DNA from: a virus
IMG/VR virus record: IMGVR_UViG_3300044737_000014
Coordinates: 1-20,250 of that record
Direction: 5' to 3' (one strand)
Length of the DNA: 20,250 nt
Below, in pieces: positions 2,301-18,563 of the stretch. Each line of letters starts with the position of its first letter. Positions within the stretch are counted from its first letter, which is position 1. Under the pieces are notes generated by a model. The model was not told the DNA's origin. It saw only the letters and a program-made list of their open reading frames with translations, and did not search any database. Made by a program: the position numbers and the translations under genes.

Positions 2301-2348
2301 GCCTGATCTCCCGTTTCGGGGAGACAATGGAGGGCTGTGGGGAAGTCG

Positions 2349-2358
2349 CAACGCACCG
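2349..2358 (-). promoter_or_regulatory. Recurring intergenic motif CGGTGCGTTG, copy A
   Basis: In the 65-bp gap before the holin-like gene, the coding strand reads GGCGGTGCGTTGC seven bases after the TAG of the preceding gene. The same 10-bp core occurs in three other gaps of this operon. The core begins 58 bases upstream of the holin-like ATG. Its function is unknown; a promoter or operator is the simplest guess. Confidence 0.55.
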
Positions 2359-2365
2359 CCGTCCG

Positions 2366-2578
2366 CTAGTCCTTCGTCGCGGGCTTCGGCTCAAGCTCTT
2401 TGATGCGCGCCTGTGCTGCCGTTAGCTGATTGCGGAGCGCGGCAATCTCATCGGCGCGCTGTTCGGCATTGCCGATGCACTGGCCTAAAGCGAGCGAGAT
2501 GCGGTCGATCGCCGCCTGCTGGGCAAAGGCCGGCGAAGTGATCGCCAGCAGAACGACTGCGAAAATGATCCTCACCAT
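2366..2578 (-). CDS. Small exported or anchored coiled-coil protein (spanin-like candidate)
   Basis: A 70-residue protein. The ATG at 2578 lies within the last codons of the fibre gene (7-bp overlap), with GAGG about 10 bases upstream. The N-terminus MVRIIFAVVLLAITSPAFAQ is a signal peptide, with likely cleavage after AFA, or an uncleaved anchor. The rest is a polar coiled coil (ADEIAALRNQLTAAQARIKELEPK) with one cysteine (Cys34). A hydrophobic N-terminus plus periplasmic coiled coil right after the fibre resembles an inner-membrane spanin, though it is short for that. If the signal is cleaved, it would be a free periplasmic protein. The gene is real by coupling and composition; the function is a guess. 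Confidence 0.7.
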   Translation of the reverse strand: MVRIIFAVVLLAITSPAFAQQAAIDRISLALGQCIGNAEQRADEIAALRNQLTAAQARIKELEPKPATKD

Positions 2579-5523
2579 GCGGGGATATACCTCGTCGTTC
2601 CGTTGTCGTCATAGGGCAGCCATTTGGTCGGGTTGCCGGCGGCGGGCGCATTCGTCAGCGTGCCTGCCGCAGCCGCGGCGCCGTTGCTCAGCGAAGTCTT
2701 GGTGCGCATCAGGAAGCTGGCGCTGTTGGTGTAGATCAGACCCGCGCCGGGATCGGACGTTGAGCCGATCGACAAGCCGCCGCTTGCGGAAAACCGCGCC
2801 GTCTCAGCACTGCCGCCCGCCGCGAATTTGATGGTTCCGGCGGCGTTGTCCGACATGATGACGAAGCCGGCCGCGGTGCCGCGCACCATGCCGTCGCCGT
2901 TCGCGCTTGCGCCATAGCTTTTGTTGGTGCCGTTCTGCTGGAACGTCAGCGCGCCCGCGCTGGTGCTGAAGCTCGCCCCCGCCAAGGCGCTCGCCCCGGC
3001 GTTGGCGTTGGCCACCGACAGCAGATAGGCGTTGGCGTTGTCGCTCTTGCTCACCGACGCGGTGCTGACGCTAGCGTCTACGGCCGTAAACGTCGTGAAC
3101 GTCCCGGCGAGCGGAGTAGCCGCCCCGATCACCACGTTGTTGATCTGATTGCCGCCGCCGCTGACGGTGCCGCCCAACGTAAAGGCGTTGATCGTGGTCG
3201 CGGTCAGCGTGGCTACGGTTGAGGTCCCGGTAAAGGTCGGAGACGCCGTCGGGGCTCGCGTGGTGTCGGTCGGGTGAACGTGATCGCCGCGCGCGTAACG
3301 GGTTGACGTACCGACGGCAGCCGTCCCGTCAATCAGCGGTGTTGCGGATGCGGCCTGCCCGAGCACCATCGCCGTCGTGGCAATTTGCGTGGTGTTGGTG
3401 TCCACTGCCGCTGTGGGCGCCGCCGGCGTTCCGGTAAAGGTCGGGCTGGCGAGCGGCGCGCGGGACGTGTCCGTGGGATGTACGTGGTCGCCACGGGCAA
3501 AGCGCGTCGATGTTCCGACCGCTGCGGAGCCGTCCATCAAAGGCGTGGCCGACGCGGCTTGCGCCAGCACCATCGCGGTGGTCGCGATCTGCGTCGTGTT
3601 TGTGTCCACCGCGGCCGTCGGCGCGGCTGGCGTGCCTGTGAACGTCGGCGACGCAAGATTTGCCTTAAGCGCGGCGATGGCGTCGGCATAGGCCGTCGTC
3701 GCCAACTGCGTCGTGTTCGTGCCGGGGCTCGCCGTCGGGGCAGTGGGAACGCCCGTCAGCGCGGGTGAAGCCAGCGGCGCTTTGAGCGCCACATTGCCGT
3801 CGATCTTCTGGAACGCCGAGAGGATGGAATCGGTCGCGCTCACAGCGCCGGCGCCGCTCGCGAACGCGGTCAGCAGCTTTGCAATGACGGGCGCGTTGTT
3901 GATTGTCGGATTCGGGTATGTGCCCGCCAGATCGCCGCCAGCCGCGCCCGTAGGGGCCGCGCCGGTGATGACGACGCTGGACGCCGCGGTGACCTGGCCC
4001 TTGGCGTTGACCGTGAACTGCCCGACATGGGTGCCGTCGCCGAACGTGCCGGTGTTGCTGTTCACCGTGGCAAAGGTCACCGCGCCGGTCGAGGCCAGCG
4101 TGGCGTCGCCGCTCAACGTCTTTGGCGCGGGATCGGCGCCGGACTGCCCGATGCGGATTTGCCCCGCCGCAACCAGTGAGATCGAGGGCGAGTTGCCTTC
4201 CGTCGTGATGTTGGTGCAGTTCGACGGGTTTGCGATCTTGGTCGTGATCGTTCCGCCGCCACTGCCCCCCATCCTGTTGCCGGTAATGCTGCCGCCGTCG
4301 ACGGCGGTGGTGCAGTTGATGGCAATATTGAGAAAATCAAAATCGTTGCCGCCGATAAAGATGCCCTTGGAGGCATTCAGCGAGATTCCGTTGGTGAGAT
4401 TGCCGGTATCCCCGGCAATCCTGTTGCCGATAAATGTGAAGCCGTTGGCCCACACGTCGATCCACGTCCCGCCGCCCACGCTGACGTCGCCGAACCAGTT
4501 GTTCTTCCACACCATCGCCTTGCACGGCAGGGTAGATATCGTCTGGAACGCCACGCCCAGTCCGCCGGGCGTCGCCTCGAAGGCGTTTTCTTCCAGCGTC
4601 CAGCTCTCGCCGCAACCTGAGATCGCCACGCCGTCGCCCAGCGAGAACCACGATTTCCTGATCGTCGCGACGGTGTTTTGCCCCGCAGTGACGCCGCCCA
4701 AAATCGCGGGCGCGCCGTGGTAGAAAAATGCCCCGTCAACCTTCGCATCGACGGTCTGCCCCATGTTGAGCAAGGTCGCGGTCCCGGTGCGGTTAGTGTC
4801 GGTGCCGAGGAAGCTCCCCTCGATGGTCGCGAATGCGCCCACCGTGACGCCGATATTGTTCGACGAGACATCGACAAGGCTGCCGGCGAACGATGCGCTG
4901 GAATATGTCAGGTGGACATTGATCAGGCCAAGGCCGACGATGCTCCGCGCGTCGATGTAGCGGGCGGCCGTCCCGGTATAGTTCAGCCGGGAAACGTTCT
5001 GGTTGGATACTCCCCCGTTCCCAGTCGCCCGGACCGGGCCCATGATCTTGACGTTCGGCTTATTGATCGTGACGGGACTGCTGTCGTTGCAGAACGATCC
5101 CTGCGGCAACCAGATCACGCCGCCTGCCGCCGGAAGATTTGCGAGTGTCGCCTGAATGATGCCGGCCTCGGGCGTGCCGTCGCATTTGAAGCCGATGTAT
5201 TGCGGCGTGACCGACGCGACGATTTCGCCCTTAAACGACGGCAGGTTTACGATCGGGGAGCCGGCGTGAATGTTGGTGGTGAGGGTGGTGATGCCGCCGC
5301 TGGCGCTGCGGAATTTCAGGATTTGCAGGGTCGGGGTGGTGGCGAACATCTGGTTCGCCAGTTGGTTGAACGTGATCGCCTGCCCGGGACCGGAATCGCC
5401 GGGCACTGCGCCGATCCGGCCGTAGACGGTGTGAAAAGGCAGGTTTGCAGGGGCGGCTTGCCCGAAGGCGCTGGCGGCAGCGGCGAGCCACAGGGCGGCG
5501 GCGGTAGCGAGGATGCGTTTCAT
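2572..5523 (-). CDS. Tail fibre / tailspike with beta-helix region and signal-like N-terminus
   Basis: A 983-residue receptor-binding protein. I chose the ATG at 5523; the frame also opens at a TTG (5559), but this would add PCSRP-type sequence before an obvious start. Residues 1-22 (MKRILATAAALWLAAAASAF) look like a secretion signal, which is odd for a virion protein. Residues about 98-433 are Gly/Asn-rich with repeated short strands (NAFEATPGGLGVAF, GNRIAGDTGNLTNGISL), as in right-handed beta-helix spikes. The linker GTYPNPTI is typical of phage fibres. Next come two 68-residue repeats with RGDHVHPTD, then a Ser/Ala-rich stalk and the C-terminus NGTTRYIPAW. No intramolecular chaperone domain is evident. 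It lies after the internal-protein genes, as T7 gene 17 does. Confidence 0.88.
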   Translation of the reverse strand: MKRILATAAALWLAAAASAFGQAAPANLPFHTVYGRIGAVPGDSGPGQAITFNQLANQMFATTPTLQILKFRSASGGITTLTTNIHAGSPIVNLPSFKGEIVASVTPQYIGFKCDGTPEAGIIQATLANLPAAGGVIWLPQGSFCNDSSPVTINKPNVKIMGPVRATGNGGVSNQNVSRLNYTGTAARYIDARSIVGLGLINVHLTYSSASFAGSLVDVSSNNIGVTVGAFATIEGSFLGTDTNRTGTATLLNMGQTVDAKVDGAFFYHGAPAILGGVTAGQNTVATIRKSWFSLGDGVAISGCGESWTLEENAFEATPGGLGVAFQTISTLPCKAMVWKNNWFGDVSVGGGTWIDVWANGFTFIGNRIAGDTGNLTNGISLNASKGIFIGGNDFDFLNIAINCTTAVDGGSITGNRMGGSGGGTITTKIANPSNCTNITTEGNSPSISLVAAGQIRIGQSGADPAPKTLSGDATLASTGAVTFATVNSNTGTFGDGTHVGQFTVNAKGQVTAASSVVITGAAPTGAAGGDLAGTYPNPTINNAPVIAKLLTAFASGAGAVSATDSILSAFQKIDGNVALKAPLASPALTGVPTAPTASPGTNTTQLATTAYADAIAALKANLASPTFTGTPAAPTAAVDTNTTQIATTAMVLAQAASATPLMDGSAAVGTSTRFARGDHVHPTDTSRAPLASPTFTGTPAAPTAAVDTNTTQIATTAMVLGQAASATPLIDGTAAVGTSTRYARGDHVHPTDTTRAPTASPTFTGTSTVATLTATTINAFTLGGTVSGGGNQINNVVIGAATPLAGTFTTFTAVDASVSTASVSKSDNANAYLLSVANANAGASALAGASFSTSAGALTFQQNGTNKSYGASANGDGMVRGTAAGFVIMSDNAAGTIKFAAGGSAETARFSASGGLSIGSTSDPGAGLIYTNSASFLMRTKTSLSNGAAAAAGTLTNAPAAGNPTKWLPYDDNGTTRYIPAW
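3250..3657 (-). repeat. Two tandem 204-bp repeats inside the fibre gene
   Basis: Unit 1 (3454-3657) and unit 2 (3250-3453) each encode 68 residues beginning LASPTFTGTPAAPTAAVDTN and ending DHVHPTDTxRAP. They differ at only a few residues (LAQ/LGQ, LMDGS/LIDGT, TRF/TRY, TSR/TTR). A diverged 39-residue half unit (LASPALTGVPTAP...) precedes them at 3658-3774. Synonymous differences are many, so the duplication is not very recent. The HVH element resembles the HxH metal-binding motif known from T4-type fibre tips. Confidence 0.9.
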
Positions 5524-5556
5524 GGGCCGGGAGCATGGCGAACGGGCCAATCCCAG

Positions 5557-5566
5557 CAACGCACCG
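5557..5566 (-). promoter_or_regulatory. Recurring intergenic motif CGGTGCGTTG, copy B
   Basis: The motif begins directly after the TGA of the internal-protein gene and continues as CGGTGCGTTGCTGG (5566 down to 5553). Its first base lies 43 bases upstream of the fibre ATG. Copy C has the same 14 bases and the same 43-base spacing. The fibre gene has no clear ribosome binding site, so this leader may matter for its expression. Confidence 0.6.
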
Positions 5567-8500
5567 TCAGGGAGCTGTGGGGCCCCGCAGCCGCTCTACC
5601 CGGGCTTTCTGCTCGGGTGTGGCGTAGCGGTAGAAGTCCCGCACGATCTTCGGGCTCATGCGGGTTGCCGGATCGAGGGTGGTCTTGATCGTGAACCGCT
5701 GCATGCTGGCCGGGATGCCGAGCTCGTCCATGCGATCCTGAGCGCCGGCGACATCGCCGAGCTGGATCTGGCGCCGGATGCCCGGCATGGACATCTGCAC
5801 CTCGAAATCGTGCTGCCGTTTGGCAGCGTAAATCTCGCCCATGGCAGGACCGCCCGGCGCGCCCTTGGAGAACGTCACGCCGGCGAACGGGCCGAACGCC
5901 TTGGCGGCATTCAATTTGGTGTCGCCAACGCCCTTCACCAGGTCTACCGTCGCGTCGAACTGGCTTTCCGGGAACTGCGATTTTGCGAGATGCGCCGCGA
6001 TCATGCCAATGTTTTTCATGTATTTGGCAGGCGTGTCGGCGTCGGGATCATAGACCTTGCGGCCGAATCCGGCATCGTTGCTCATGATCTGCCAGGCCGG
6101 CCGCGCGGTGGTGCTGAGTTTCTTGCGCATCATGTCCAGCGGCCCGGTCATGTAGCCGGTGAATTCCTCGCCGATCTTGCCGACCGGGTTGCGCATATAG
6201 ACCGCCTGCCCGTCGCCGGTGGTTCCGACGCGGATGCGGTCCTTTTTGCCGGGCTCGTTTTCGCTGGTCGACGACAATTCCTCCAGCAGGCCCATCGGCT
6301 GGATCAGCTTCAGCGGATGCTCGCGGACTTCCTGCATGACGTTGTTGAAGCGCTCGGCATAGCCGTGCAACTCCTTTTCCAGCGTGTTGTCGCTGCGCAG
6401 CACGTTGATCGCGCTCTGCAGCAGCGAGTTGCCGACGTACATCAGCGCCACGTCGGCCAGCACAATCGTCATGGCCTTGCGCCGCGCCAGCGATTTCGCG
6501 TAGCCCTTGGCGGCCGGGTCGACCACGCCCATGTCGCGCTCGATCTGTGCCAGCACGTCTTTCGGCAGACCGGTCAGCATGTCTTTCATGACGCCGAGAT
6601 TGCCCAGCGTGAACGAGCGCGAGAACAGCAGCATGTTCGCGACCTTGGTCGCGGCGTCGCTCATCGCCTCTTTCGGCAGCGCGCCGGCGTAGCGGTTGGC
6701 CCAATGTGCGGCGAGCCGGGATGAGGTCTGCGGGTCGATTCCCTTGGCAATCGCATCGGCGCGCAGGTTGACGTAAAGGCCCATCTGCAGGTCGGCGACA
6801 CGGTCCCACAGCAGCGTATTGTGCCAGAAGTCGCCGGCCTTATCGACCGCGCGCTTGACCGCCACACCCGCCGCCTCGTCGAACAGCCCGGGCACCGCGG
6901 CGAGCAGCTTCGCGGTCCATGACCGGCCCGGCGTCAGGTCCGGCGATTCCATCAAACCGGAAATGTCCTGGTTGAAAAAGCGATGACCGATGGGGACGAG
7001 GCCGTTGTCGATCGCCTCGCCCATCAGCGCCGGGTTGTTCTTGGCGCGGTTGCCCTCGAAATAGACCTTGAACGTCGCGACCTTGCCCGGCATCGCAGGC
7101 AGCGCCCGACCCCACTCGACCGCGTTGTGGATCATTGGCGAGTTCATGATCATGCTCATGGTCTTGCCCTTGAGCGACATCATCCCGCCGTACAGCGCGC
7201 CGGATTTTTGCGTCAGCACGGCGCGCAACGGCCCCTCGAAGTCGCCGTGGACGTAAAGCGGCACCTGCTCGAAAACCGTGTTGCCCTCCGCGTCCTTGAC
7301 GGCCTGCACCTTGCCGTCGATCTCGCGCAATTGCGGTCGCCACGTCCGGAACGCCGGATGGTCGAGCGTGAACCATTTGGTTTCGGAGCCTGCCGGAATT
7401 GCCCCCTCGACCACGGTGTCGGCTCCGGTGCGCGCGCCATAGTCCTTGATGTTGTTGATCAGGGTCCGGCCCGCGACTGCGTCGTCGAGCTCGGCGGTGG
7501 ACAGCGCAACCGTGCGGATGTTCTTTGCGACGACAGCCTGATCGCCATACTTCGCCTTGGCCGCGGCTTCGGTTTCCTCGATCGTCATGTACTTGCGCTG
7601 GCGCAGGTTGCGGGTTTTGACCGTCAGGTTACGGCCAAGCGCATCGAGTGACAGCGCGCCTTCCTTACTGCTGGCGTGCGCGATGTTGATCACCATGCGC
7701 GGCGCGTGCATCGGAATGCCTTCGCCCTCGACAATGCCGGCGGCGATCGCGCGAAGCCACGAATTCTGCTGGCGGGCATCCAGTTCCTCGACCATCGCGC
7801 GCTCGGCAGGTTCAAGCGTGGCAAGCCCCTGGTGCTCGCGCATCGACGCCGGTTCGCCAAGCCGCATCGACGTGCTTTCCTCGTCCATCGCCATGAACAT
7901 GCGCGCCTGCTGCTCCGGGGTGAACCGCTTGCCGATGTCGGTATCAATCCGGCTCCAGTCCCAGCGATTCCGCCGCAGCGAATTTGAAAAATCCTTGGCG
8001 ATAGCCATGCTGTCTTTGGTGCCGCGTGCCATCGGAGCAACCAGCATTTGCGCATCGCGGCCGATGTCGAGCAGGGTATTCGCCGCGCTCTGAAACGATG
8101 CAGCGAGACTGCCCGGCGGGCGCGCGGGCGTCACGCTCAACGGCACGTCGGGCGGGTCGGTTGCGGCGGCGCCGAGGGACCGGGGAGCCCCGCCGGTTTC
8201 GGTCAGCACCTCAACGTCGGCAGGGTCGAGCTTCACCTCAACCTGCTTTGCCGTGACCTCGTGTTTCAGGAACGCATCGTTTGCCGCATCGTGCACGGCT
8301 TCGGCGGGGTGGATGCCGTCCTCTTGCCACATGCGGCGAAGGTTAACGGCAACATGCGAGCCCTCGTATGCTTCCTCACCACCGAAACGGGCTCCGCTAA
8401 TCCGATCCCCCGAAAGCTCCTTGATCTCCGGATTTTGTTCCCGGAACTGTTGCAGCAAAGACCGCACTGCTCGCGGGCCAAGCGCATTCGATCCCTCATC

Positions 8501-9274
8501 GACGTAAATGTTTTCGACCCGCGCGACATCGCCCATTTTGGTAACGAGCAGATGACCCAACTGCTCACCGTCGTTGCCTTTGATATCGTAAAGGTGCTGC
8601 ATCTCGCCAAGCCTTGTGTCGCTGCGCACCAACGTCGGGCGCAGGCGGCTACTCTCTACAAAGCTTTCGGGCGCCAGCACCTTAGCAGCGTTTATAAAAT
8701 CCTCCGGGCGCGGCAAACCCCCGACGGGCTGATCCATCACGCCTTCCGGCGTGGCGGCCGGACGCGAGAATCGGCCCATGCCGCCTTCGATCATCGCCCA
8801 ATTACCGATGTTGATGACTTCGTCCTTGGCGCGGTTCGATGTGCCTTGCGAACCGCCGAATTCCTCGACCAACTGGCCCATTGCACCACCAGCACCATGA
8901 ATGCCGGCGTTGAGCGCGCCCATGAGCCCCTGCCACGCCTGCGCAACCGGCAGCAGCACCGCCTCATTCGCCATCTGGATCGGGCCGGGCCTTGATTTCA
9001 GCGGGTCGTGAAACACGCCGATATCGATCATGTGCGCGAGCCGCTCGTCCGAATAGCCGGTCGGGGTTGCGCCAGCGAAGCCTTCCTTGGCTTCGTGGCC
9101 GGCAGCATTCAGGATACGGCTGATCTGCTGCCCCTTGCGCACGCGATCGAGGAAGGCTTCGGGGATGGGCTCGCTGGCGGCGGGCGGCGGTGCGCCGAAC
9201 ACGTCGGCGTCGCTCATCTCGCGCGGCTTGCCGAAAACCTGCTCGTCGGAAAGTTCGGTCACGGCGCCACCCAT
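5567..9274 (-). CDS. Large internal virion / polyvalent protein (gp16 position, GNAT-like segment, LPD38-like C-terminus)
   Basis: A 1235-residue protein, the last of three internal-protein genes, near the size of T7 gp16. The N-terminus has a repeated short motif (SDEQVFGKP, SDADVFGAP; residues 9-29). Residues about 212-315 (LGEMQHLYDIKG..GHLLVTKMGD..RVENIYVDE..GPRAVRSLL) look like a GNAT acetyltransferase fold. Residues 395-900 are long helices. About 935-1235 contains a hydrophobic helix (MTIVLADVALMYVGNSLL) and resembles the large polyvalent protein-associated domain LPD38; I recognise this by style, not by a search. I see no lytic transglycosylase motif such as T7 gp16 carries. The protein is probably ejected into the host with DNA. 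The ATG at 9274 overlaps the upstream gene by 16 bp; a GTG at 9262 (GTGA overlap) is an equally plausible start. Confidence 0.82.
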   Translation of the reverse strand: MGGAVTELSDEQVFGKPREMSDADVFGAPPPAASEPIPEAFLDRVRKGQQISRILNAAGHEAKEGFAGATPTGYSDERLAHMIDIGVFHDPLKSRPGPIQMANEAVLLPVAQAWQGLMGALNAGIHGAGGAMGQLVEEFGGSQGTSNRAKDEVINIGNWAMIEGGMGRFSRPAATPEGVMDQPVGGLPRPEDFINAAKVLAPESFVESSRLRPTLVRSDTRLGEMQHLYDIKGNDGEQLGHLLVTKMGDVARVENIYVDEGSNALGPRAVRSLLQQFREQNPEIKELSGDRISGARFGGEEAYEGSHVAVNLRRMWQEDGIHPAEAVHDAANDAFLKHEVTAKQVEVKLDPADVEVLTETGGAPRSLGAAATDPPDVPLSVTPARPPGSLAASFQSAANTLLDIGRDAQMLVAPMARGTKDSMAIAKDFSNSLRRNRWDWSRIDTDIGKRFTPEQQARMFMAMDEESTSMRLGEPASMREHQGLATLEPAERAMVEELDARQQNSWLRAIAAGIVEGEGIPMHAPRMVINIAHASSKEGALSLDALGRNLTVKTRNLRQRKYMTIEETEAAAKAKYGDQAVVAKNIRTVALSTAELDDAVAGRTLINNIKDYGARTGADTVVEGAIPAGSETKWFTLDHPAFRTWRPQLREIDGKVQAVKDAEGNTVFEQVPLYVHGDFEGPLRAVLTQKSGALYGGMMSLKGKTMSMIMNSPMIHNAVEWGRALPAMPGKVATFKVYFEGNRAKNNPALMGEAIDNGLVPIGHRFFNQDISGLMESPDLTPGRSWTAKLLAAVPGLFDEAAGVAVKRAVDKAGDFWHNTLLWDRVADLQMGLYVNLRADAIAKGIDPQTSSRLAAHWANRYAGALPKEAMSDAATKVANMLLFSRSFTLGNLGVMKDMLTGLPKDVLAQIERDMGVVDPAAKGYAKSLARRKAMTIVLADVALMYVGNSLLQSAINVLRSDNTLEKELHGYAERFNNVMQEVREHPLKLIQPMGLLEELSSTSENEPGKKDRIRVGTTGDGQAVYMRNPVGKIGEEFTGYMTGPLDMMRKKLSTTARPAWQIMSNDAGFGRKVYDPDADTPAKYMKNIGMIAAHLAKSQFPESQFDATVDLVKGVGDTKLNAAKAFGPFAGVTFSKGAPGGPAMGEIYAAKRQHDFEVQMSMPGIRRQIQLGDVAGAQDRMDELGIPASMQRFTIKTTLDPATRMSPKIVRDFYRYATPEQKARVERLRGPTAP

Positions 9275-10872
9275 CCCGTGCCGGTCCAGCGCATCTTGCC
9301 GCGCGGCGTCTCATAGAGGCCCGGCGCGCGTTGATCGGCCGGCGGAATCGCCGGCATCACGTCGTCGCGCTTTGCCGGTGTCTCAGCTTTGGTCGAAAGA
9401 TCGCTCTGCATCGATCCGGCATACCTCGCGATGCGTTCGGGCTTCCCAAGAAAATGTTCTGACGACGGGTCGTAAATGAGGTGAGGATCAAGCCCCTTTT
9501 TACGCAGGTCCGCTTCCATGCGTCGCGCGTCCATCTCGGCCGCATACAGTTTCGGTGATCCGCCGACAGGATCGTACTTTCCTCTGCCGCCAGAAAAGGC
9601 ATCGGCGTACTGCTTGAAGAACAGCGCGCGGTCCCTTTCCAGCGCCGCGCCTTCCGGCGTCTTGCGGGCGATCACTTCGGCGCGAAACTGGTTGAAGTCC
9701 TTTTCCGACATGCTGCCAGGCTTACCCGGGTCGGTCAGCCGCGCATCCCATGCCTTCTGCATCACCTTGTCGGGGTCGGCATCCGGCGCGCGCAGGTCGC
9801 GCAACAGGCCGACGAAGGTCTGCTGCGACAACCGCGAGTCCGTTTCCGGCTTGAGCTGGCGATCCACGTAATTCAGCAAGTTGTTCTTGTCAGTCTTGGT
9901 TAGGCCGGGATCGTTGAGGATTTTAACTGCGGTCGGATCGTTGGCGAGTTTCGGGTCCTGCGAGCGGACATCGATCAGGTATTTCGCGGTCAGTTCATTG
10001 CTGCGATCCTGAACGACTTCCTTTTCGCGGCGGCGGTTGGTCTCATAGTCGTAATTGCGGGCGCGGATTTGCTGCCGGGCATTCGATCCCAGCGTTTGCG
10101 CCTCGGCGCCGTTGATATAGTCGGGATATTTCTTGATCCACTCGGCGGCGGTTTCTTCCGGGTTGCCGGATTTCTGGATTGCGCCGATGGCGCCAGCCTT
10201 GATGATGGCGGCCTTGGCGGTCTGCGATAGTTCGGTGCGCGCCCGCGCAGCATCAACCGGGCTCAGCGTCGGGCTGCTGTCCACCATCGCGCCGATGGAA
10301 TGATCCACGCCCGCGAGCAGATTCGGCACCGACGACGGATCGTTGATCGCGGTATTCGACATTGCCGTGGTCGAGTTGGCGATGTTGTTGCGGGCCGCGA
10401 TTCCGGCCAGCGTCGATTGGTCGGCGGCGGTTTTTTCGAAAAGATGCGCGCGGAGGCTTTCGACCTTGTGCTCGGCAAACTTCTGGCCGCCTTCGGTGCT
10501 GAAGCCCTCGGAGTATTTATCGAGCGCGGGCTTGACGACTTCTTCCCGAAATTTCGCCGCAACCGACGGGTCGTTCGGATCGAAATTCGGGTCTTTGAGC
10601 GTGTTATTCCATTGCTTGGTGAGGTTGTCCTGCAGCTCGGCGTATTTTGCGGCACCGGCGCTGACTTCGCGATGCTCCATGAACTTGTAGGCAACGTTGC
10701 CGACATCATTGATGGTCGAGGCCCAGCGGCGGCCTTCGTCGCTGATGGCTTCCGCCGCCGCATTGAAGAACGAGCCGCCGCGACGCGCCGCCGCCGCCGT
10801 CGCATCGACGCCGATTTCCGTCGGTCGAAGGCCGATGTCCTGGGGCGCGTTATTTTCTCGAATGTTGGGCAT
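9259..10872 (-). CDS. Internal virion protein, gp15 position
   Basis: A 537-residue hydrophilic, mostly helical protein without cysteine, signal peptide or membrane segment. The start (MPNIRENNAPQDIGLRPTEIG) leads into an Ala-rich helix with an aromatic patch (RRWASTINDVGNVAYKFMEHRE), then long charged helices to about residue 460 and a Pro-rich tail ending GLYETPRGKMRWTGTGWVAP. This tail pattern, with Trp repeats after a disordered linker, is common at the ends of phage structural proteins. Position between a gp14-like and a gp16-like gene, and the all-helical make-up, fit the middle ejection protein of podoviruses, although it is shorter than T7 gp15 (747 residues). The gap to the upstream gene is 9 bp. 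Identification rests on order and composition, not on a motif. Confidence 0.75.
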   Translation of the reverse strand: MPNIRENNAPQDIGLRPTEIGVDATAAAARRGGSFFNAAAEAISDEGRRWASTINDVGNVAYKFMEHREVSAGAAKYAELQDNLTKQWNNTLKDPNFDPNDPSVAAKFREEVVKPALDKYSEGFSTEGGQKFAEHKVESLRAHLFEKTAADQSTLAGIAARNNIANSTTAMSNTAINDPSSVPNLLAGVDHSIGAMVDSSPTLSPVDAARARTELSQTAKAAIIKAGAIGAIQKSGNPEETAAEWIKKYPDYINGAEAQTLGSNARQQIRARNYDYETNRRREKEVVQDRSNELTAKYLIDVRSQDPKLANDPTAVKILNDPGLTKTDKNNLLNYVDRQLKPETDSRLSQQTFVGLLRDLRAPDADPDKVMQKAWDARLTDPGKPGSMSEKDFNQFRAEVIARKTPEGAALERDRALFFKQYADAFSGGRGKYDPVGGSPKLYAAEMDARRMEADLRKKGLDPHLIYDPSSEHFLGKPERIARYAGSMQSDLSTKAETPAKRDDVMPAIPPADQRAPGLYETPRGKMRWTGTGWVAP

Positions 10873-10881
10873 GTGCGCGGC

Positions 10882-11373: not shown

Positions 11374-11375
11374 GG

Positions 11376-14300
11376 CTATCGGTCCTGCGTCGCAATGTTG
11401 CCGCTGATCGCGACGAGGTTTGCCGGGAACGGCCGCGAGACGCGCCACGCGATCATGCCGTCATAGCTGTAGTCGTCCTGCAGCGTGTTGTGCACGACAC
11501 CGGAGAACGCGGTCAGCGTCGCGATGTCCTGCCCGTTCGCCTGTTTCAGCGGCACCGGATACATCGACGTGAAGTTTGCGCCGACCGACATGCCGCGCGT
11601 ATTTGCCAGCAGCATCGAATATTGATGATTGCGCCGCGTCTTGCCCAGCGCCGGGCCATTGCGCGCGCCAGTGTCGGCGGGCGCAATCGGGCGCACCAAC
11701 TGGCCGTCGCTGTTGTAGGTGAATCCAACAACGATCTGCGATACCGGGAGTGCCGCGGCAAAATCGAGCGTGAACAACCCGCGGCCGGACCCGGAAGAAA
11801 TGCCATCGCCATAGGGCACGAAGCAAGAGCCGTTGCTGACAAGGAAATCGGCAAAGCCTGATGTGCCGGTTCCGCGGTCGCCACAGTCCAGCCCGCCGGC
11901 AAATACCTGCACCGTCTTGCCGTTGAGGTGCCACAGCCCGTTGATCGTCAGACCGCCATATGGCGCGCCGGTGATCGCCGTGTCGCTCGATGTGACGGAC
12001 GTTGCTGGAACGGCGTCGTCGAGCAGCCACGCATCCGCAAGGGCTGCGTTTTCGTCCGGCGTGTCGGTCAAGAGCTCGACGTGGCGGATTCCGGTCGCGG
12101 GATCGTTCGTCACCATGGTCAGGGTGTCGAGATCGCCGCCGACCGACGGCCCGCCGCAGATGCTTTCGACTATGCGGCCGGAGCCGAGGGTGTGGCGGTG
12201 CCAGCCGTAAAAGGTCGGCGGCTGCGCGGTGGTCAGGGTGTCGCGCTTGTAGGTCACGCCGAACAGCGTTCCGCCGGTGCAGCGGCCCCAGATCATCGGG
12301 GTGACCGACGAGGTGTAGGCGATCTCGGCAATGCCGGTGCTGATGATATGCCCGGCCTTGTCGGCGAGGTTCGGGCCGGTGAACTTGCCGGAATAGGCGT
12401 CCGGGAAGTATTCGGTCAGCTTGCGGGCGTAGCGGTGCACAAAAATGTTGGTGTGCTCGGTGCGGCAGGGCTCGATATTGGCGGCGCCGATCTTGGTGAT
12501 GCGCCGCGCCGAGATGTTGTTCGGTGCGATTGCGCCGGTGGTCGGGGCGCGCACCAGCCATTCGCCGGCCTGCGTGCCCATCACGATGCCGCCTTCCTCG
12601 GGCTGCATCCAAACGATCTGATTGGCATCCTTGGCGTTGAGTTTGTAGGAAATCGCGTTGCTGGCCGCCACCGTGCCGTATTGATCGGTCGGCGCGAAAT
12701 TGACGGTGCCGCCGGCGATGCCGTTCGATACGCTGGCGTGGAAGCTGTTCTTGACCGCGCCGCCGAGCCACAGCCGCCCGTCGTCATAGGTGCCGCAGGT
12801 CGGCCATCCGGTTGTGTTGCTGTAGACGCCGAGGCGCCAGGTCAGGATCGAGACGGTGTAGAGCAGCGGCGGCCCGAGGATTTCGATGCTGACGCCGGAG
12901 CTGGTGCCGGTGCCGGCCGGATTGAACAGTGACAATTCGCCGATGGTATTCGAGAGGCTGTAGCTGATGGGACCGGGCGGGCCGCCGCCGGATGCCGTGA
13001 TCGTGACGACCGCGATCTGCTCGATCCAGACATATTTCCACGCCGTCACCTGGTCGGTCGAGGTGATCGTCACCGCGGAAAACGTGTTGGCGATTGCGCC
13101 GGAGGTGCCGAGCAGCGCCCCGTCGGACGAGGACGACGGCACTGACGCCTTGCCGCGCAGGTTGAGCGTGATCGAATTGATGGTGACGTTGGTGCCCGAA
13201 GCAAACCCGCCGTCGCTTGACGGGTAGATCGTGGCCTGCTGGATTTTCTGGTCCGACGCGCCGGAATAATCCTTGCCGACATAGGAGATCAGGGTCAGCG
13301 AACCGCTGTCGGCGCCGGATATCGTCTGTTCGGCCGATGCCGCCGCGGCCTGCGAGAAGATGCCGTCGAACGCCGCCGCCAGTCCGCCGCCGGAGCCCAT
13401 GTTGCCGATGCTGGACGAGCCCGCCAGCGCGCGGTCGATGATGTTGGACAGGCCGACGATCTTGCCCCAGGTCCAGATCGCCGCGCCCTGCGGGACAATC
13501 TGCCAGTTGGTCAGGTCCGCGCCGGGCGCGTGGCCGGTATTGCTCGAGGTTAGCGACTGCCAATAGGTCGTGGCGCCCGGCAACCCGCTGGGATTGTAGC
13601 CGACCACATTGCCCGCGGCGTAGGTCGAGCCGACCAGCCAAAGGGCAGGCTCCGAAAATAGCCGCACCAGCCTGCCGGTATCGGTGCCGAGGAATCCCCG
13701 CCCCTCATTGATCGCGGCACTTGCCGAGGTGGCCGACCACCACGGCAGCAATCCAATCGGCGCATTGCCGACGTTCTGATCCAACATCGACACGTAATTG
13801 ACACCAGCGCTGGTAACAAACGCGCCGGCCGCGTATGCCTTGGTGGCATCATAGGCCGGGAACGCCAGCGCGAGGTTGATCACGCCGGATTTGGCCGATG
13901 GCGCCGCCTGCACTCCGTTGGTGAACGGGTCGAGATAGGGCCCGTCGTTGAATACCGCGGCCGCCAGCGCGAAGTTGGTCTGGATGACCGTAGCCGAGGG
14001 CGGCGCCAGAACGGTCAGCGCTTGCGGCGCAACCTGGGGGGAAAGCAGGATATTGGTCTTTTCAGCCTGCACCGCGCGAATGCCGGCCCATGCGCCGCCG
14101 GTATAGGGCGTCACGAGTTCGGCGATGCGCGCCAGCGTCATGTTGGTCGGCAGCGATCCCAGCACCGAGCCGTCGAGGCTGTCGCCGGTGATGGCGTCGC
14201 GCAGCGAAAGATGCGTGGCGTCGATCACGGTCGCGATGAAATTGCGTTCCTGCATCAGCGCCGGCGCTGGCCCGAGCCGCACCGTGTTTTCCGAGGAGAT

Positions 14301-14663
14301 GCCGTGCGCAATAAGCGTCTCGACAACGGCCGGCGACGCCGTCGAGATCGTGACCGGCGATATCGAGATGTCCTGCACCAGGTGTCGCCCCGAGCGAAAC
14401 CGGACATAGCCGTCGGTAAATTCCATCGTCACCGCGTTGGCCTGCTCGAAATCGAACCGGATCACGCGGGCGGGCCGGCCGAGCCGGGTGGTGTCGCCGA
14501 ACAGCGTGCCGGGTCGCCGCACCAATGCGCCGATCTCGTTCGGGAAACTGTTGAGGCAGACATTGAGCGAAATGCGGTAGTCGGGCTTGTCGAAACGGCC
14601 CTGCGCGAACTTGGAAATCTCACCTCCCAAGAAGCCTGGAATGGCGTATGTCGCGTCGGCCAC
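11376..14663 (-). CDS. Tail tubular protein B (gp12-like nozzle) with carbohydrate-binding-type inserts
   Basis: A 1095-residue protein starting at GTG 14663, with AAGGAA upstream. The first 90 residues have the hallmark of podoviral nozzle proteins: an opening GFLGGEIS, then NSFPNEIGALVRRPGT, ARVIRFDFEQANAVTMEF and DGYVRF. Two short modules (about 271-311 with YAAGAFVTSAGVNYVSM; 343-392 with YAAGNVVGYNPSG and NTGHAPG) look like CBM5/12 chitin-binding repeats. Residues about 400-515 (YVGKDYSGASDQKIQQATIY) resemble a discoidin-type domain. The C-terminal third continues the beta-propeller-like body. It is about 300 residues longer than T7 gp12, and the inserts account for much of that. It is expected to form the tail nozzle beneath the gp11-like ring. 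The gap to the upstream gene is 3 bp. Confidence 0.88.
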   Translation of the reverse strand: MADATYAIPGFLGGEISKFAQGRFDKPDYRISLNVCLNSFPNEIGALVRRPGTLFGDTTRLGRPARVIRFDFEQANAVTMEFTDGYVRFRSGRHLVQDISISPVTISTASPAVVETLIAHGISSENTVRLGPAPALMQERNFIATVIDATHLSLRDAITGDSLDGSVLGSLPTNMTLARIAELVTPYTGGAWAGIRAVQAEKTNILLSPQVAPQALTVLAPPSATVIQTNFALAAAVFNDGPYLDPFTNGVQAAPSAKSGVINLALAFPAYDATKAYAAGAFVTSAGVNYVSMLDQNVGNAPIGLLPWWSATSASAAINEGRGFLGTDTGRLVRLFSEPALWLVGSTYAAGNVVGYNPSGLPGATTYWQSLTSSNTGHAPGADLTNWQIVPQGAAIWTWGKIVGLSNIIDRALAGSSSIGNMGSGGGLAAAFDGIFSQAAAASAEQTISGADSGSLTLISYVGKDYSGASDQKIQQATIYPSSDGGFASGTNVTINSITLNLRGKASVPSSSSDGALLGTSGAIANTFSAVTITSTDQVTAWKYVWIEQIAVVTITASGGGPPGPISYSLSNTIGELSLFNPAGTGTSSGVSIEILGPPLLYTVSILTWRLGVYSNTTGWPTCGTYDDGRLWLGGAVKNSFHASVSNGIAGGTVNFAPTDQYGTVAASNAISYKLNAKDANQIVWMQPEEGGIVMGTQAGEWLVRAPTTGAIAPNNISARRITKIGAANIEPCRTEHTNIFVHRYARKLTEYFPDAYSGKFTGPNLADKAGHIISTGIAEIAYTSSVTPMIWGRCTGGTLFGVTYKRDTLTTAQPPTFYGWHRHTLGSGRIVESICGGPSVGGDLDTLTMVTNDPATGIRHVELLTDTPDENAALADAWLLDDAVPATSVTSSDTAITGAPYGGLTINGLWHLNGKTVQVFAGGLDCGDRGTGTSGFADFLVSNGSCFVPYGDGISSGSGRGLFTLDFAAALPVSQIVVGFTYNSDGQLVRPIAPADTGARNGPALGKTRRNHQYSMLLANTRGMSVGANFTSMYPVPLKQANGQDIATLTAFSGVVHNTLQDDYSYDGMIAWRVSRPFPANLVAISGNIATQDR

Positions 14664-14666
14664 GGC

Positions 14667-15968
14667 TCAATTCCTTACCGTGACATACTCGTCGTCCGGC
14701 GGATCGTCGTAGCTCTGCTCGATCGCGTTGACGGCGCGCGCCTGCGACATCCATTCGTCGTAGACCTTGGCGATGGTGCCGAGCTTTGAAGTCGATTGCG
14801 TCAGCGGCTCGCACACCTCCATGCCGACCCGTGCCGCCAGCCCCTCGCAAAACATCGCGTCCATCTTCCGGACATCGGTGATGTCGACGACGCAGCGAAG
14901 CGGGATGGGACCGGATTCGGCGGTGATCAGCAGTCCGTTCTCGAAATTCCAGTCGTTATAGGTGACGCCGGACGGCCCGCCGAGCCATGTGGTCGTGCCC
15001 TTCGGATTCTGTGCGCCGAGCCGCAGGAAGCCGGCCGGCAGCATGAAGATGTTGCGGCCAGCACCCTGCGCCGATGGGCCGGCGCCGACCGGATAGATGA
15101 TGTCCAGCGTAGTCAGCCCGACGCCCATCGGGAATTCGGCACCGCCGATCTGCCGCCATTTGCTGGACCCGGCGCCGCTGACAAACACCGTGGTCCACGG
15201 GTTGAGGACGCCGGTATTGGTCCAGTTCACGCCGTTGTCGGCGGTCGGATCGTTGGCGATATTGCCGGCGCCGACCGAGGTGTAGATCGCGCCATCGGAG
15301 CCGCCGACGGATGCACCCGCGGCATAGGTCGTCGCGATGTCCCACAGCGCCGGCGCAGCCGACGGCGTCTTGCCGGTGTTGAAGTTGATCAGGCTCATAT
15401 AGGCGACGGCGAGATACGTCACGACCTGATTTTTGCTGTAGACGGCGGTGGCGTCGTAAGGCGTGCCGGTAGCCGGGTTGTCGGTGTTGCCGTTCTGCAG
15501 CGAAACGTAGGTCCGCGCCGTGCCGTTGCCTGATGTGGTGTAAACAACCTCGCCGGAGAAATAGCTGGTCGCGGCGGCGTACAGCGAGACGGTGAGCGGG
15601 CCGAAATATGGCTCCCATGTCGTCGAGGCCAACGGGTCGTTGCCGGTATTGTTCGGGACCTTCGAAATCCACGGGTTGCCGTACTGATCCGAAACGATCG
15701 ATCCGACAAAATAGGTGGTGCCCTGCGACCACAATGCGGGCACCAGCAGCATAGTGCCGCTGTCGATGGCCCGGATGGCGGTGCGGCGGGTGGCGAAGGT
15801 CCAGACGTTGCGGCGCAACTCGGCTTGGCGCAGCTTGCCGTAGCAGAACGAGGTCTCGGATGCGTTTTTGGAAATCTCCGCGAAGCCCAGCAGCGGGTCA
15901 ATGCGGGACGCGCCGCAGTGCTGCAGCGCGCGGTTGGCGACATCTACCGGGGTCTGGTATTCAGCCAT
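14667..15968 (-). CDS. Tail tubular protein A (gp11-like adaptor) with four inserted repeats
   Basis: A 433-residue protein with ATG at 15968. The ends match the gp11-like adaptor family: an opening TPVDVANRALQHCGASRI, then SETSFCYGKLRQAELRRNVWTF, and near the end DAMFCEGLAARVGMEVCEPL with YDEWMSQARAVNAIEQS. T7 gp11 has 196 residues. The surplus is a block at about 80-250 made of four repeats of a Tyr/Gly-rich module (WSQGTTYFVGSIV, YAAATSYFSGEVV, YDATAVYSKNQVV, WDIATTYAAGASV), each followed by an aromatic plus NTGxxP-like turn, resembling CBM5/12 modules. The protein should form the ring between portal and nozzle, with the inserts displayed outward. It starts a tail module after intergenic motif copy C and is almost contiguous with the nozzle gene. 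Confidence 0.88.
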   Translation of the reverse strand: MAEYQTPVDVANRALQHCGASRIDPLLGFAEISKNASETSFCYGKLRQAELRRNVWTFATRRTAIRAIDSGTMLLVPALWSQGTTYFVGSIVSDQYGNPWISKVPNNTGNDPLASTTWEPYFGPLTVSLYAAATSYFSGEVVYTTSGNGTARTYVSLQNGNTDNPATGTPYDATAVYSKNQVVTYLAVAYMSLINFNTGKTPSAAPALWDIATTYAAGASVGGSDGAIYTSVGAGNIANDPTADNGVNWTNTGVLNPWTTVFVSGAGSSKWRQIGGAEFPMGVGLTTLDIIYPVGAGPSAQGAGRNIFMLPAGFLRLGAQNPKGTTTWLGGPSGVTYNDWNFENGLLITAESGPIPLRCVVDITDVRKMDAMFCEGLAARVGMEVCEPLTQSTSKLGTIAKVYDEWMSQARAVNAIEQSYDDPPDDEYVTVRN

Positions 15969-16001
15969 GCGCCGGACGATGCGGTTGCCGGGTCAGACCA
16001 G

Positions 16002-16011
16002 CAACGCACCG
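16002..16011 (-). promoter_or_regulatory. Recurring intergenic motif CGGTGCGTTG, copy C
   Basis: Located in the 46-bp gap before tail tubular protein A, three bases after the TAG of the upstream gene. The match extends to CGGTGCGTTGCTGG (16011 down to 15998), identical to copy B. The first base is 43 bases from the ATG in both, and the segment just before the start codons is also similar (CATCGTCCGG against CATGCTCCCGG). Confidence 0.6.
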
Positions 16012-16014
16012 CTG

Positions 16015-16308
16015 CTATTCGACCGCCGTCGGAATCCGGACGATCTCAAGGTAATTGGCGGTGAACGTCGCGACCACCCACTGATAGGTGCCCGGCGGCA
16101 GCGAAATGGTCTGCTGGCCGGCCGTCGCCGTGATCTGCGTAATCCGAGCCGTATAGGTCACGCCGTCTGGCCCGAGACGCTTCAAATCGATCGTGCCTGT
16201 ACCCGTCGATTTGGTTTCGATCCAGTAGGAGCCGCCGCGCAGGTTGAACGGGCCGAGCGTGCCGGCGGCCTGGTTCGAATAGACGACGCGGTCGATGCCA
16301 TTGAACAT
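16015..16308 (-). CDS. Small beta-rich virion-type protein, unknown
   Basis: A 97-residue protein. The ATG at 16308 lies four bases after the upstream stop; a longer frame to 16521 is Arg/Ser/Pro-rich shadow sequence. The sequence alternates hydrophobic and polar residues (RVVYSNQAAGTLGPFNLRGG, SYWIETKSTGTGTIDLKRLG, then PPGTYQWVVATFTANYLEIVRI), as in a beta-sandwich, with no cysteine and no signal peptide. This looks like a small head or neck decoration protein. It is the last of four small genes between capsid and tail tubular A, and is followed by motif copy C. No family is recognised. Confidence 0.78.
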   Translation of the reverse strand: MFNGIDRVVYSNQAAGTLGPFNLRGGSYWIETKSTGTGTIDLKRLGPDGVTYTARITQITATAGQQTISLPPGTYQWVVATFTANYLEIVRIPTAVE

Positions 16309-16312
16309 CAGA

Positions 16313-16534
16313 TCACCCGTCGATGAACGTGAAACCTGCGGCGACAACCTGCTTCGGGTCCTCGATGAACCGTGCGCAAGCCTCAAGGAACTTGATCGCA
16401 TCGATCTTGCGCACCGCGCCATCGGTGATGCGCAACTCCATCGACAGGCCGCCGGTGGTCGCCGTCCCGGTGGTGAAGTCGGAGGCTTTGAAGCCCTCGA
16501 TGCCGCGGCTAAACCCAACAAAGTGATCGGCCAT
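16313..16534 (-). CDS. Small hypothetical virion-region protein
   Basis: A 73-residue protein with ATG at 16534 and a clear AGGAGAG ribosome binding site that overlaps the upstream stop region. It begins MADHFVGFSRGIEGFKASDF, has a short strand-like part (SMELRITDGAVRKID), and ends in a helix (AIKFLEACARFIEDPKQVVA). One cysteine is present, and no membrane or export signal. The compact alpha/beta make-up and tight packing among head genes suggest a structural or assembly factor. I do not recognise it. Confidence 0.8.
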   Translation of the reverse strand: MADHFVGFSRGIEGFKASDFTTGTATTGGLSMELRITDGAVRKIDAIKFLEACARFIEDPKQVVAAGFTFIDG

Positions 16535-16543
16535 CTTGCTCTC

Positions 16544-16894
16544 CTACACCGTGCCGCTGAAAGCAGCTTGCTCGATAGCCCGCATCGCGGACCTGAATTT
16601 GTTGCGATCGGTGATCACGGCCATGTTGACGATCACGGCCATGTTGCCGGTCTTGACCACGGTCTGCGCGGCGCTGACGGCGGCAATGGCCGTGTCTGAC
16701 GCCTGCGCCAGCCCGAGCGCGGTCGGGTCGGCGGCGACGGTGGCATTCGCGGTGACGGCTGCGGATGCTGCAATTGCCGCAGTGACGGCGGTATCGAGCG
16801 CGGTCACCTTGTCGCCGACGCCGGCAGCACTCGAATTATAGGTGCCGTTGCCGAGGCTCTGGCCCAACGTCGCTCGAATGACCGCGAACGCCAT
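16544..16894 (-). CDS. Ala-rich small protein of the head-neck region
   Basis: A 116-residue protein with ATG at 16894, six bases after the upstream stop, with GAGG in the gap. The centre is extremely Ala/Val/Thr-rich (DTAVTAAIAASAAVTANATVAAD), giving a long helix or coiled coil. The ends are less biased (MAFAVIRATLGQSLGNGTYN; ITDRNKFRSAMRAIEQAAFS). The hydrophobic stretch near residues 80-94 (TVVKTGNMAVIVNMAVI) is not long enough to be a confident membrane segment. The role is unknown; position between head genes suggests a virion or assembly protein. Confidence 0.78.
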   Translation of the reverse strand: MAFAVIRATLGQSLGNGTYNSSAAGVGDKVTALDTAVTAAIAASAAVTANATVAADPTALGLAQASDTAIAAVSAAQTVVKTGNMAVIVNMAVITDRNKFRSAMRAIEQAAFSGTV

Positions 16895-16900
16895 TTGACC

Positions 16901-17434
16901 TCAGTCCGCGTATGCGACGCGGATGCCGAACTTGCCGGTTCCGGTGGTGACAGCGGTGGTGACGACGGTCGCAACGATATCGAACATGCCGCCGGGGTCC
17001 GATGACAGTCCGGCCGCCTGCCACAACGGCTGTGTCCGCTTGTCCAGCGTATAGGTGCCAGACTCGTTGCTGACGTCGGTCGGGGTCACGGCCGCGGCGC
17101 AATCGATCGCGGATGCGAAGAACGCCGCTGAGATCGTGTTGGCGAGCAGCAGCGCCGTCGGCTTGCCGCCTTCGCCGTCGGTCGCGTAATAGAGACCGAG
17201 GTCGAACTTGCCGGCGGTCTGCGCTTCCGATTCGAACACGATCGACTTGACCTTGCAGTTCGAGGGCACCCGAACGAGTTGGTAAGTCGCCGCAACGCTC
17301 GATGAAGCGACCGCAGTGGCGTACCCGTCGACCGACTTCAGCACGGCTGCGGCGCCCTCGCCGGCGGTGTTCGCTACCGGAGGCGTCGCGTCGAGGTTGG
17401 TGATCGGGGTGGATTTGACGTGGTCAATGGCCAT
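16901..17434 (-). CDS. Probable head decoration / minor capsid protein
   Basis: A 177-residue protein. The ATG at 17434 is set by a strong AAAGGAGG site just downstream of the capsid stop codon; a 19-residue upstream extension was dropped. The sequence is beta-rich: MAIDHVKSTPITNLDATPPV, then VKSVDGYATAVASSSVAATYQLVRVPSN, KVKSIVFESEAQTAGKFDLGLYYATD, TYTLDKRTQPLWQAAGLSSDPGGMFDIVATV and GKFGIRVAYAD. I recall homologues in rhizobial prophages beside capsid genes, without an assigned function. A gene of this size directly after the capsid gene is often a decoration or stabilisation protein, which is what I infer here. It should be made in high amounts given its ribosome binding site and place. 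Confidence 0.72.
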   Translation of the reverse strand: MAIDHVKSTPITNLDATPPVANTAGEGAAAVLKSVDGYATAVASSSVAATYQLVRVPSNCKVKSIVFESEAQTAGKFDLGLYYATDGEGGKPTALLLANTISAAFFASAIDCAAAVTPTDVSNESGTYTLDKRTQPLWQAAGLSSDPGGMFDIVATVVTTAVTTGTGKFGIRVAYAD

Positions 17435-17445
17435 GGTGGCCTCCT

Positions 17446-18369
17446 TTACGGCGTTACGTCGGCAGCGGCCGAGGTGTCGGCGCACAGGCATTCCAGCAAC
17501 CGGCCCGGCTCAAGCCGCACCGCGCCTGCTGTCATCATGGTGTACATCTGCCACGGCAGGCCGGTGATATCGGCGCGCTGGCGCACGTCGTCCGTGCGCT
17601 CGTTCCAGACGCCGAGATAGAGACCGGATTTGGCGAACGGGATGTTGGAACGGACGTTCGAAGCGGATGGCAGGCGTTCCGAATAGACGATGTCGAAGCC
17701 CATCAGGCGCGAAACCTTGCCGTCGGTCATCTTCGGGGTATCGTTGAATTCGGTGGAGACGACCTGCACCTGGTTGAGCAGATCGGATTCGCCCTGGGAA
17801 TTGGTGACCCAGGTCAGGGTCTCGACTTCCATGTCGACCTGCGCCTTGCGCATGATGCGCTTGGCTTCGATCATCTTGGCGACGGTGAGGCCCGATGCCG
17901 CGGCAGAGCCGAAGGTCGATGCGACCTGCCATGAGGATGAGATCGAGGCCCAGGTCTCGGAGGTGAAGCTGCCGAGGTCGGTGCCGAGCGTCGCGGTGCC
18001 GAAAGCTGCCGAGATCAGCCGGTCATCCCATTCGCGGTTGACGGCGGCAGAAGCTGCGGCGATTTCTTGGCTCTGCGGGTCGATCGTGGCCCGCAGCTTG
18101 TCGAAGGTGTCGATCATCTGGTTGACTTCGCGGTCGACCGGGTAAACCCAGCGCCGGACGAAATCGATATCCTGCCGGCCGATCGGGGCGAAGCGGCCCG
18201 CGGGCGGCTTCATCTGCACCGCGCCAGCGTACTGGATCGGCGACGCGACCTTACCGACGTGCGAACCTTCCATGACGCGGCCGCGCAGCTTCGACGTGCG
18301 CTGCTGCAGCTTGAGGTCGAGGATGGTGGCATACTGCGTCGTGAAAAGTTTCGAGAGATTCTCGGACAT
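17446..18369 (-). CDS. Major capsid protein
   Basis: A 307-residue protein. I chose the ATG at 18369 (MSENLSKLFTTQYATILDLK); an in-frame ATG at 18414 would add MGKAADVSPFSGGIA. It fits podoviral capsid proteins of HK97-like fold: an early LKLQQRTSKLRGRVMEGSHVGK with PAGRFAPIGRQDIDFVRRWVYP, a helix like the HK97 spine (VAKMIEAKRIMRKAQVDME), then NSQGESDLLNQVQVVSTEFND, MGFDIVYSERLP, KSGLYLGVWNERTDDV and MTAGAVRLEPGRLLE. It follows scaffold and one small gene, and precedes the probable decoration protein by 11 bp. A 205-bp leader with motif copy D lies upstream, so it may have its own promoter or processing site, as expected for the most abundant product. Confidence 0.92.
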   Translation of the reverse strand: MSENLSKLFTTQYATILDLKLQQRTSKLRGRVMEGSHVGKVASPIQYAGAVQMKPPAGRFAPIGRQDIDFVRRWVYPVDREVNQMIDTFDKLRATIDPQSQEIAAASAAVNREWDDRLISAAFGTATLGTDLGSFTSETWASISSSWQVASTFGSAAASGLTVAKMIEAKRIMRKAQVDMEVETLTWVTNSQGESDLLNQVQVVSTEFNDTPKMTDGKVSRLMGFDIVYSERLPSASNVRSNIPFAKSGLYLGVWNERTDDVRQRADITGLPWQMYTMMTAGAVRLEPGRLLECLCADTSAAADVTP

Positions 18370-18448
18370 GGCTATCCCGCCTGAAAAGGGTGAAACGTCG
18401 GCGGCCTTGCCCATGCGGATTGCGCGCGGGGGCCATCAAACTTTCAGC

Positions 18449-18494
18449 CTTGTCCTTGACGGGGGCCGTCACTGCCCGAATCGGCTTGTCCTTG
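18449..18494. repeat. 10-bp direct repeat in the capsid leader
   Basis: CTTGTCCTTG occurs at 18449-18458 and 18485-18494, a 36-bp period, in the 205-bp leader before the capsid gene. On the coding strand it reads CAAGGACAAG. No frame across it is convincing, so it may be a protein-binding or RNA element; nothing more can be said. Confidence 0.4.
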
Positions 18495-18553
18495 CGGGGC
18501 CGGACGCTCGGGGTCTCATGGGCGCGGAAACTGGACCGGCGGCGCGTTTGGTA

Positions 18554-18563
18554 CAACGCACCG
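18554..18563 (-). promoter_or_regulatory. Recurring intergenic motif CGGTGCGTTG, copy D
   Basis: It lies 11 bases after the TAG of the small Lys/Cys protein gene, with the match extended to GGCGGTGCGTTG as in copy A. Unlike the other copies it lies far (about 195 bases) from the next start codon, at the beginning of a long leader to the capsid gene. That is compatible with a transcription start or processing element rather than a translation signal. Confidence 0.55.

Follow-up and report, generated by a model that had tools for sequence, protein, structure and literature searches.

A repeated intergenic box predicts dispersed, probably activator-dependent late promoters with mostly leaderless messages in a group of temperate phages

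We analysed a viral DNA stretch of 20,250 nucleotides (IMG/VR record IMGVR_UViG_3300044737_000014, positions 1 to 20,250; hereafter the window), in which the 10-bp word CGGTGCGTTG, here called the box, recurs between the late genes. The window is a 20-kb fragment of a temperate phage similar to the complete relative G016, with one end beside a tRNA-Val gene. We consider it quite probable that each copy of the box belongs to a late promoter of the phage that is served by an activator together with a host sigma factor, and we suggest that such phage-specific, probably activator-dependent promoters are dispersed over the late genes and would give mostly leaderless mRNAs. The promoter reading is favoured by several features. 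The box is one half of a bipartite element with fixed spacing, which reads as a -35 and a -10 region; ATG codons fall at the expected transcription start (+1); the copies occupy orthologous sites in relatives and are absent from the early half of a complete relative's genome; divergent copies stand on the opposite strand; and the box varies in concert within single phages. It also co-occurs with one family of candidate regulators. From these sequence patterns we infer both promoter activity and the use of a host sigma factor.

An exact scan of both strands found CGGTGCGTTG exactly four times in the window, always on the minus (coding) strand, at 18554..18563 before the major capsid gene, 16002..16011 before the tail tubular protein A gene, 5557..5566 before the tail fibre gene and 2349..2358 before a lysis or holin-like gene, which are the positions and the strand named in the original prediction. 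No further copy was found on either strand of the whole window when one mismatch was allowed. The boxes start 11, 3, 0 and 7 bases after a stop codon, matching the range of 0-11 bases given before, and the fibre copy lies directly 3' of the TGA of a gene for a 1235-amino acid protein. The boxes and the start codons were confirmed base by base. The exhaustive scan also bore out that no copy lies inside a gene and that the fifth large gap (877-1051) lacks the motif; neither gene-internal copies nor copies strewn over other parts of the phage, which would have counted against the prediction, were seen. Repetition alone is weak support for a 10-mer: on the coding strand of the window, four or more copies are seen for 13 different 10-mers, compared with about 3 in Markov nulls. 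However, CGGTGCGTTG is the sole one of these whose copies are all intergenic. About 2% of the gene train is intergenic DNA, and the chance of such a placement is about 2e-7 per 10-mer.

A second conserved half, CANNNTCC, lies 20 bases downstream of the box and had been missed in the original prediction. The position-wise information over 109 copies showed renewed conservation about 29 bases downstream of the first G, and the alignment of 102 non-redundant copies gave the bipartite element YGGTGCGTTGYTGG-N16-CANNNTCC, whose second block is C79 A91 N N N T92 C70 C66 (in percent). The start of this block is offset by 28-30 bases in 86 of the 102 copies, and the alignment score was 735, compared with 343 +/- 10 for shuffles and 432 for a control range. 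In this alignment, the TTG of the box would be the first half of a -35 hexamer, separated by a spacer of 17 bp (modal value) from a predicted -10 that keeps A-11 (91%) and T-7 (92%). Two sigma70 features, A-11/T-7 in the -10 and a spacer of 16-18 bp to TTGNNN, were present; a scan for close matches to TTGACA/TATAAT, with 9 of 12 consensus positions, found none of the four window copies. The assignment of TTG to the -35 is supported by G015, a distant relative without the box, where a textbook TTGACA-N17-TATGTA stands just as far from the ATG of TerS. In G015, the tail tubular A gene is preceded by an ordinary Shine-Dalgarno site.

The expected +1 lies 40-42 bases from the first G of the box and about 7 bases after the -10. 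Start codons are concentrated there: ATG occurs 50 times in the four positions 40-43 bases from the box against a background of about 1.5 per position, 60 of the 102 copies have an ATG at 35-46 bases, and in about half of the copies an ATG is placed at the expected +1. In the window, where all of these elements are on the minus strand, the alignment predicts the -10 of the tail tubular A promoter at CATCGT (15976..15981) and that of the fibre promoter at CATGCT (5532..5537), and the base-by-base check places the ATGs of both genes (15966-15968 and 5521-5523) exactly at the expected +1. The distance of 43 bases to the ATG, which had been noticed for two copies, reflects this coincidence of the start codon with the expected transcription start. 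Neither of the two genes has a Shine-Dalgarno site. The lysis and capsid genes, which start further on, have one; the predicted -10 of the capsid promoter is CAGTTT (18528..18533), 20 bases after the box, and that of the lysis gene is CATTGT (2324..2329), after which a short leader containing GGGAG reaches to the ATG at 2298-2300. Since an ATG at the expected +1 leaves no leader, we expect leaderless mRNAs for the tail, fibre and terminase genes, and we infer that the tail tubular A, fibre and terminase messages are translated as such, while the capsid and lysis copies would give leaders with Shine-Dalgarno sites.

Relatives of the window, 35 IMG/VR contigs, were found through the capsid protein (phrog_3437). 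In nearly all of them, the strand that encodes the late genes contains the pattern GGTGCGTTG, with a strand-specific distribution in 15 of 18 contigs, and a control with the pattern read backwards gave 0-1 matches per strand. The box sites in the relatives are orthologous: TerS and the fibre-like genes have a box about 40 bases ahead of them, tail tubular A has one at 42 bases and the capsid start one at about 190 bases, and boxes also precede the gene that follows TerL and the lysis genes. The placement before capsid, tail tubular A and fibre agrees with the earlier claim that the boxes precede module starts, and of the three functions then suggested (promoter, operator and RNA-processing element), the promoter is best supported. 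The complete relative G016 is a temperate phage of 45.7 kb with a 127-bp terminal repeat, an integrase, a CI-like repressor, RusA and an exonuclease. Its box copies all lie in the late half or at the early-late junction; none was found at 28.3-44.9 kb, the region of early, integration and lysogeny functions with the integrase, CI-like and recombination genes. The same site is found at several late modules and is absent from early genes, as in activator-dependent late promoters of the P2 Ogr, Mu C and T4 MotA type. The distant phages MW202898 and Rhizobium phage RHph_Y25 have no box in the parts covered, and the matches listed in a 14-mer scan of viral contigs were mostly chance matches.

At the early-late junction of the relatives, box copies point in both directions. 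Those on the opposite strand precede small helix-turn-helix (HTH) proteins of 66-101 amino acids, whose start codons are 41-45 bases from the box; in L157 and L202, such leftward copies precede HTH proteins of at least two types, with starts at or near the expected +1. The rightward junction promoter precedes a conserved, apparently noncoding segment (GAGGACCACGACGAAGGCGAATAGCCGAGGA; L164:5030-5170, L202:1146-1280 and L201:11111-11240), which is common to diverged phages and in which the reading frame is not kept.

The box itself differs among phages in a concerted manner. L001 contains GGTACGTTG in both of its two copies, G017 has the first G changed (a base other than G followed by GTGCGTTG) in 5 of 5 copies, and G011 has the variant GTACGTT[GTC] in 5 copies; the standard box is found in none of the three, and the variant occupies all or nearly all copies of each. 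Since its capsid (95%) makes L001 the nearest relative of the window, capsid ancestry alone does not explain which box a phage carries. Such concerted changes within phages imply a phage-specific trans factor, and the boxes behave as if a phage protein reads them. The best candidate for this activator is the A2/A3 family with a predicted XRE fold. Its members, proteins of 170-200 amino acids, are encoded between RusA and TerS, where the early operon ends, and this is the only protein found in every junction examined. The A2 and A3 branches are homologous (hhalign 96.9%, E-value 1.6e-10). Residues 20-91 of the A2 model match the XRE domain (HipB, Z 9.9; lambda CI, Z 7.5; restriction controller proteins, Z about 7.5), and the model matches many XRE chains, with Foldseek E-values above 0.1. 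When the A3 branch alone was used for the search, 11 loci were obtained, all with a box near the regulator gene or before TerS. The family gave no Pfam or NCBIfam match and only marginal, function-unassigned matches in PHROGs, and its regulators have no match in annotated phages.

We propose that each module promoter would consist of the 13-bp box, defined as CGGTGCGTTG(C/T)TGG and spanning about -41 to -29, with its TTG opening the -35, a 17-bp spacer, a degenerate CANNNT as the -10 and then CC. The -10 is probably melted by host RNA polymerase carrying the vegetative sigma factor, and a phage DNA-binding protein, made from the distal end of the early operon, is likely to bind the box and to take the place of the poor -35 contact. 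With this activator at all boxes, all late modules would be switched on together. A wider picture, in which the A2/A3 family is an undescribed activator class that drives 5-9 dispersed late promoters starting on start codons, most virion mRNAs are leaderless, only the capsid mRNA has a long leader, and the three tandem hairpins of this leader, described below, are read by a second trans factor, is put forward tentatively, and we lean somewhat against its holding in full.

Here, we need to consider the observations that weigh against the proposed mechanism. The -10 is GC-rich and degenerate, and the use of sigma70 is thus deduced from two positions and the spacing. The A3 model is poor (predicted local distance difference test score, pLDDT, of 55), so that the XRE fold is seen in the A2 branch only, and L203, an A3 locus, has the standard box at TerS although the copy next to its regulator is GGTACGTTG. 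The link to the regulator consists of synteny and co-occurrence within one phage group, and the window is a fragment without the early region, in which its own regulator is unseen. Finally, the capsid copies of most relatives contain a hairpin of 8-9 bp with compensating arms and a CANNTT-like loop, centred on the -10 (for example, L002:5507-5560, L012:3167-3215 and L022:1656-1705), which hints at a role at the RNA level there. The capsid copy of the window itself lacks this hairpin.

These hairpins, whose arms change but still match, and the position of the copies directly after stop codons are what would be expected if, in a read-through transcript, the box and the capsid hairpin set the modules apart as a processing site or a nut-like antitermination site. 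We regard this explanation as improbable. Among 99 copies tested, the excess of hairpins came largely from the capsid copies and from palindromes at some TerS or divergent copies, whereas most tail, fibre and lysis copies, together with the capsid copy of the window, have none, and the boxA plus boxB hairpin of lambda nut sites was not found at each copy. An RNA-level element also leaves the -10-like block and the ATG at +1 unexplained, and box copies precede first genes and occur divergently. Similarly improbable is a box read by a phage sigma factor or a single-subunit RNA polymerase instead of an activator with the host sigma factor. The box is longer than a normal -35, is phage-specific and varies in concert, as this explanation would have it, but the 17-bp spacer with A-11 and T-7 is the pattern of host sigma70. 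In ten long relatives no sigma region 2 was matched, with positive controls detected, and the region-4 matches in G003, G009 and G014 are unrelated, isolated small HTH proteins that are not conserved. A T7-type polymerase (PF00940) gave no match in the same number of long relatives, nor did it in the control genomes; for a T7-type promoter, which we rejected, the 17-bp spacing between -35 and -10 is stronger evidence against it than this null result.

The main alternative keeps the promoter and assigns the trans factor to another phage protein, for example the HTH protein of 66-101 amino acids expressed from the opposite-strand copy. Such proteins have HTH-like sequences and are preceded by a box, as expected of an autoregulated factor, but they are of at least two dissimilar types and are not found in all phages of the group, whereas A2/A3 is present at each junction examined; we consider this alternative possible but doubtful. 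Least likely is a translation-start signal like the Start Associated Sequences of cluster K mycobacteriophages, for which a translational role has been proposed and which lie 3-7 bp before the starts of non-structural genes (PMC3203893). The box resembles them as a short, asymmetric word, repeated between genes before the start codons of many genes in one main orientation (PMC3203893). It lies further from the start codon, however: it ends about 31-34 bases and begins about 40 bases before the ATG, and the capsid copies are about 190 bases from the start. Activator-dependent late promoters are the explanation that we prefer.

The predicted leader of the capsid mRNA (18370..18522, minus strand), whose beginning is placed from the predicted -10, contains three tandem short hairpins and the Shine-Dalgarno-like AGGCGGG, and is conserved in 14 phages. 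The hairpins have the form GGxC-C-CC-GCAA-GG-ACAA-GGCx, and three in tandem are kept in all of these phages. Their ACAA side reads (A/T)AC in all three repeats in 4 phages and (A/G)CAA in nearly all repeats in the other 10, as if one trans factor reads all three hairpins. No Rfam match was found for them.

The genes that follow the boxes in the window are all on the minus strand. The major capsid gene (17446..18369), starting at MSENLS, matches phrog_3437 (1.4e-45), and the tail tubular protein A-like gene (14667..15968) matches phrog_394 (5.2e-29). The tail fibre gene (2572..5523) matches several tail-fibre PHROGs and has a signal-peptide-like N-terminus (MKRILATAAALWLAAAASAFG), and fibre-like genes of the relatives likewise begin with a signal-peptide-like sequence. 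The small membrane protein at 2013..2300 is a possible holin by its position and has no clear family match. The 1235-amino acid protein of the virion region (5567-9274, minus strand) is without any PHROGs match. A tRNA-Val (CAC) gene is located at the end of the late genes (61-135, plus strand) and is probably the attachment site of the prophage; the tRNA alone was matched when the window and three relatives were searched against Rfam at the gathering score. Bacterial genomes were scanned twice, by capsid protein and alignment; no relative and no host genome were found.

Multi-copy late promoters under a phage activator are of a known kind. In the literature and databases searched, we found no description of the box, of the candidate regulator family or of the leaderless arrangement; the literature search for the word returned unrelated text only, and that on late promoters returned nothing on this phage group. 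The analysis provides a testable late-gene switch, comprising a 13-bp box, a -10, a predicted start and a candidate activator, for uncultured temperate phages without an annotated close relative. If it is true, most virion genes of these phages are expressed from mRNAs without a leader, an unusual arrangement for structural genes of phages. The box could also help to find late modules and to match regulators to phages in metagenomes, and its concerted change within single phages would be a natural record of the coevolution of regulator and site.

Several known systems share part of this arrangement. Lambda Q is an antiterminator that acts at one late promoter. The candidate gene resembles Q in its position where the early operon ends, between a RusA-like resolvase and the terminase, whereas each module here would have its own promoter. 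At the lambda CII promoters and the CI-dependent PRM, an HTH or XRE-fold protein at or beside the -35 helps sigma70 at one to three lysogeny promoters. The A2 model likewise matches the N-terminal domain of lambda CI, but at least five late promoters are predicted here. The middle promoters of T4 combine a MotA box at about -30 with a sigma70 -10. The promoters proposed here are similar in that a phage box would replace the -35 at a fixed spacing from a sigma70-type -10; they differ in the box, in serving late instead of middle genes and in belonging to a temperate phage, and no relative of MotA or AsiA turned up, no targeted search having been made. In P2 and P4, several Ogr/Delta-dependent late promoters, one per module, are distributed through the virion genes and are served by a small phage activator and host RNA polymerase; the P2 activator is a zinc-finger protein that acts on an imperfect inverted repeat near -55. 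In contrast, the box described here is asymmetric and overlaps the -35, and the candidate has a predicted XRE fold. What these phages appear to share with P2 and P4 is a set of several late promoters, each heading a module, together with a candidate small phage activator.

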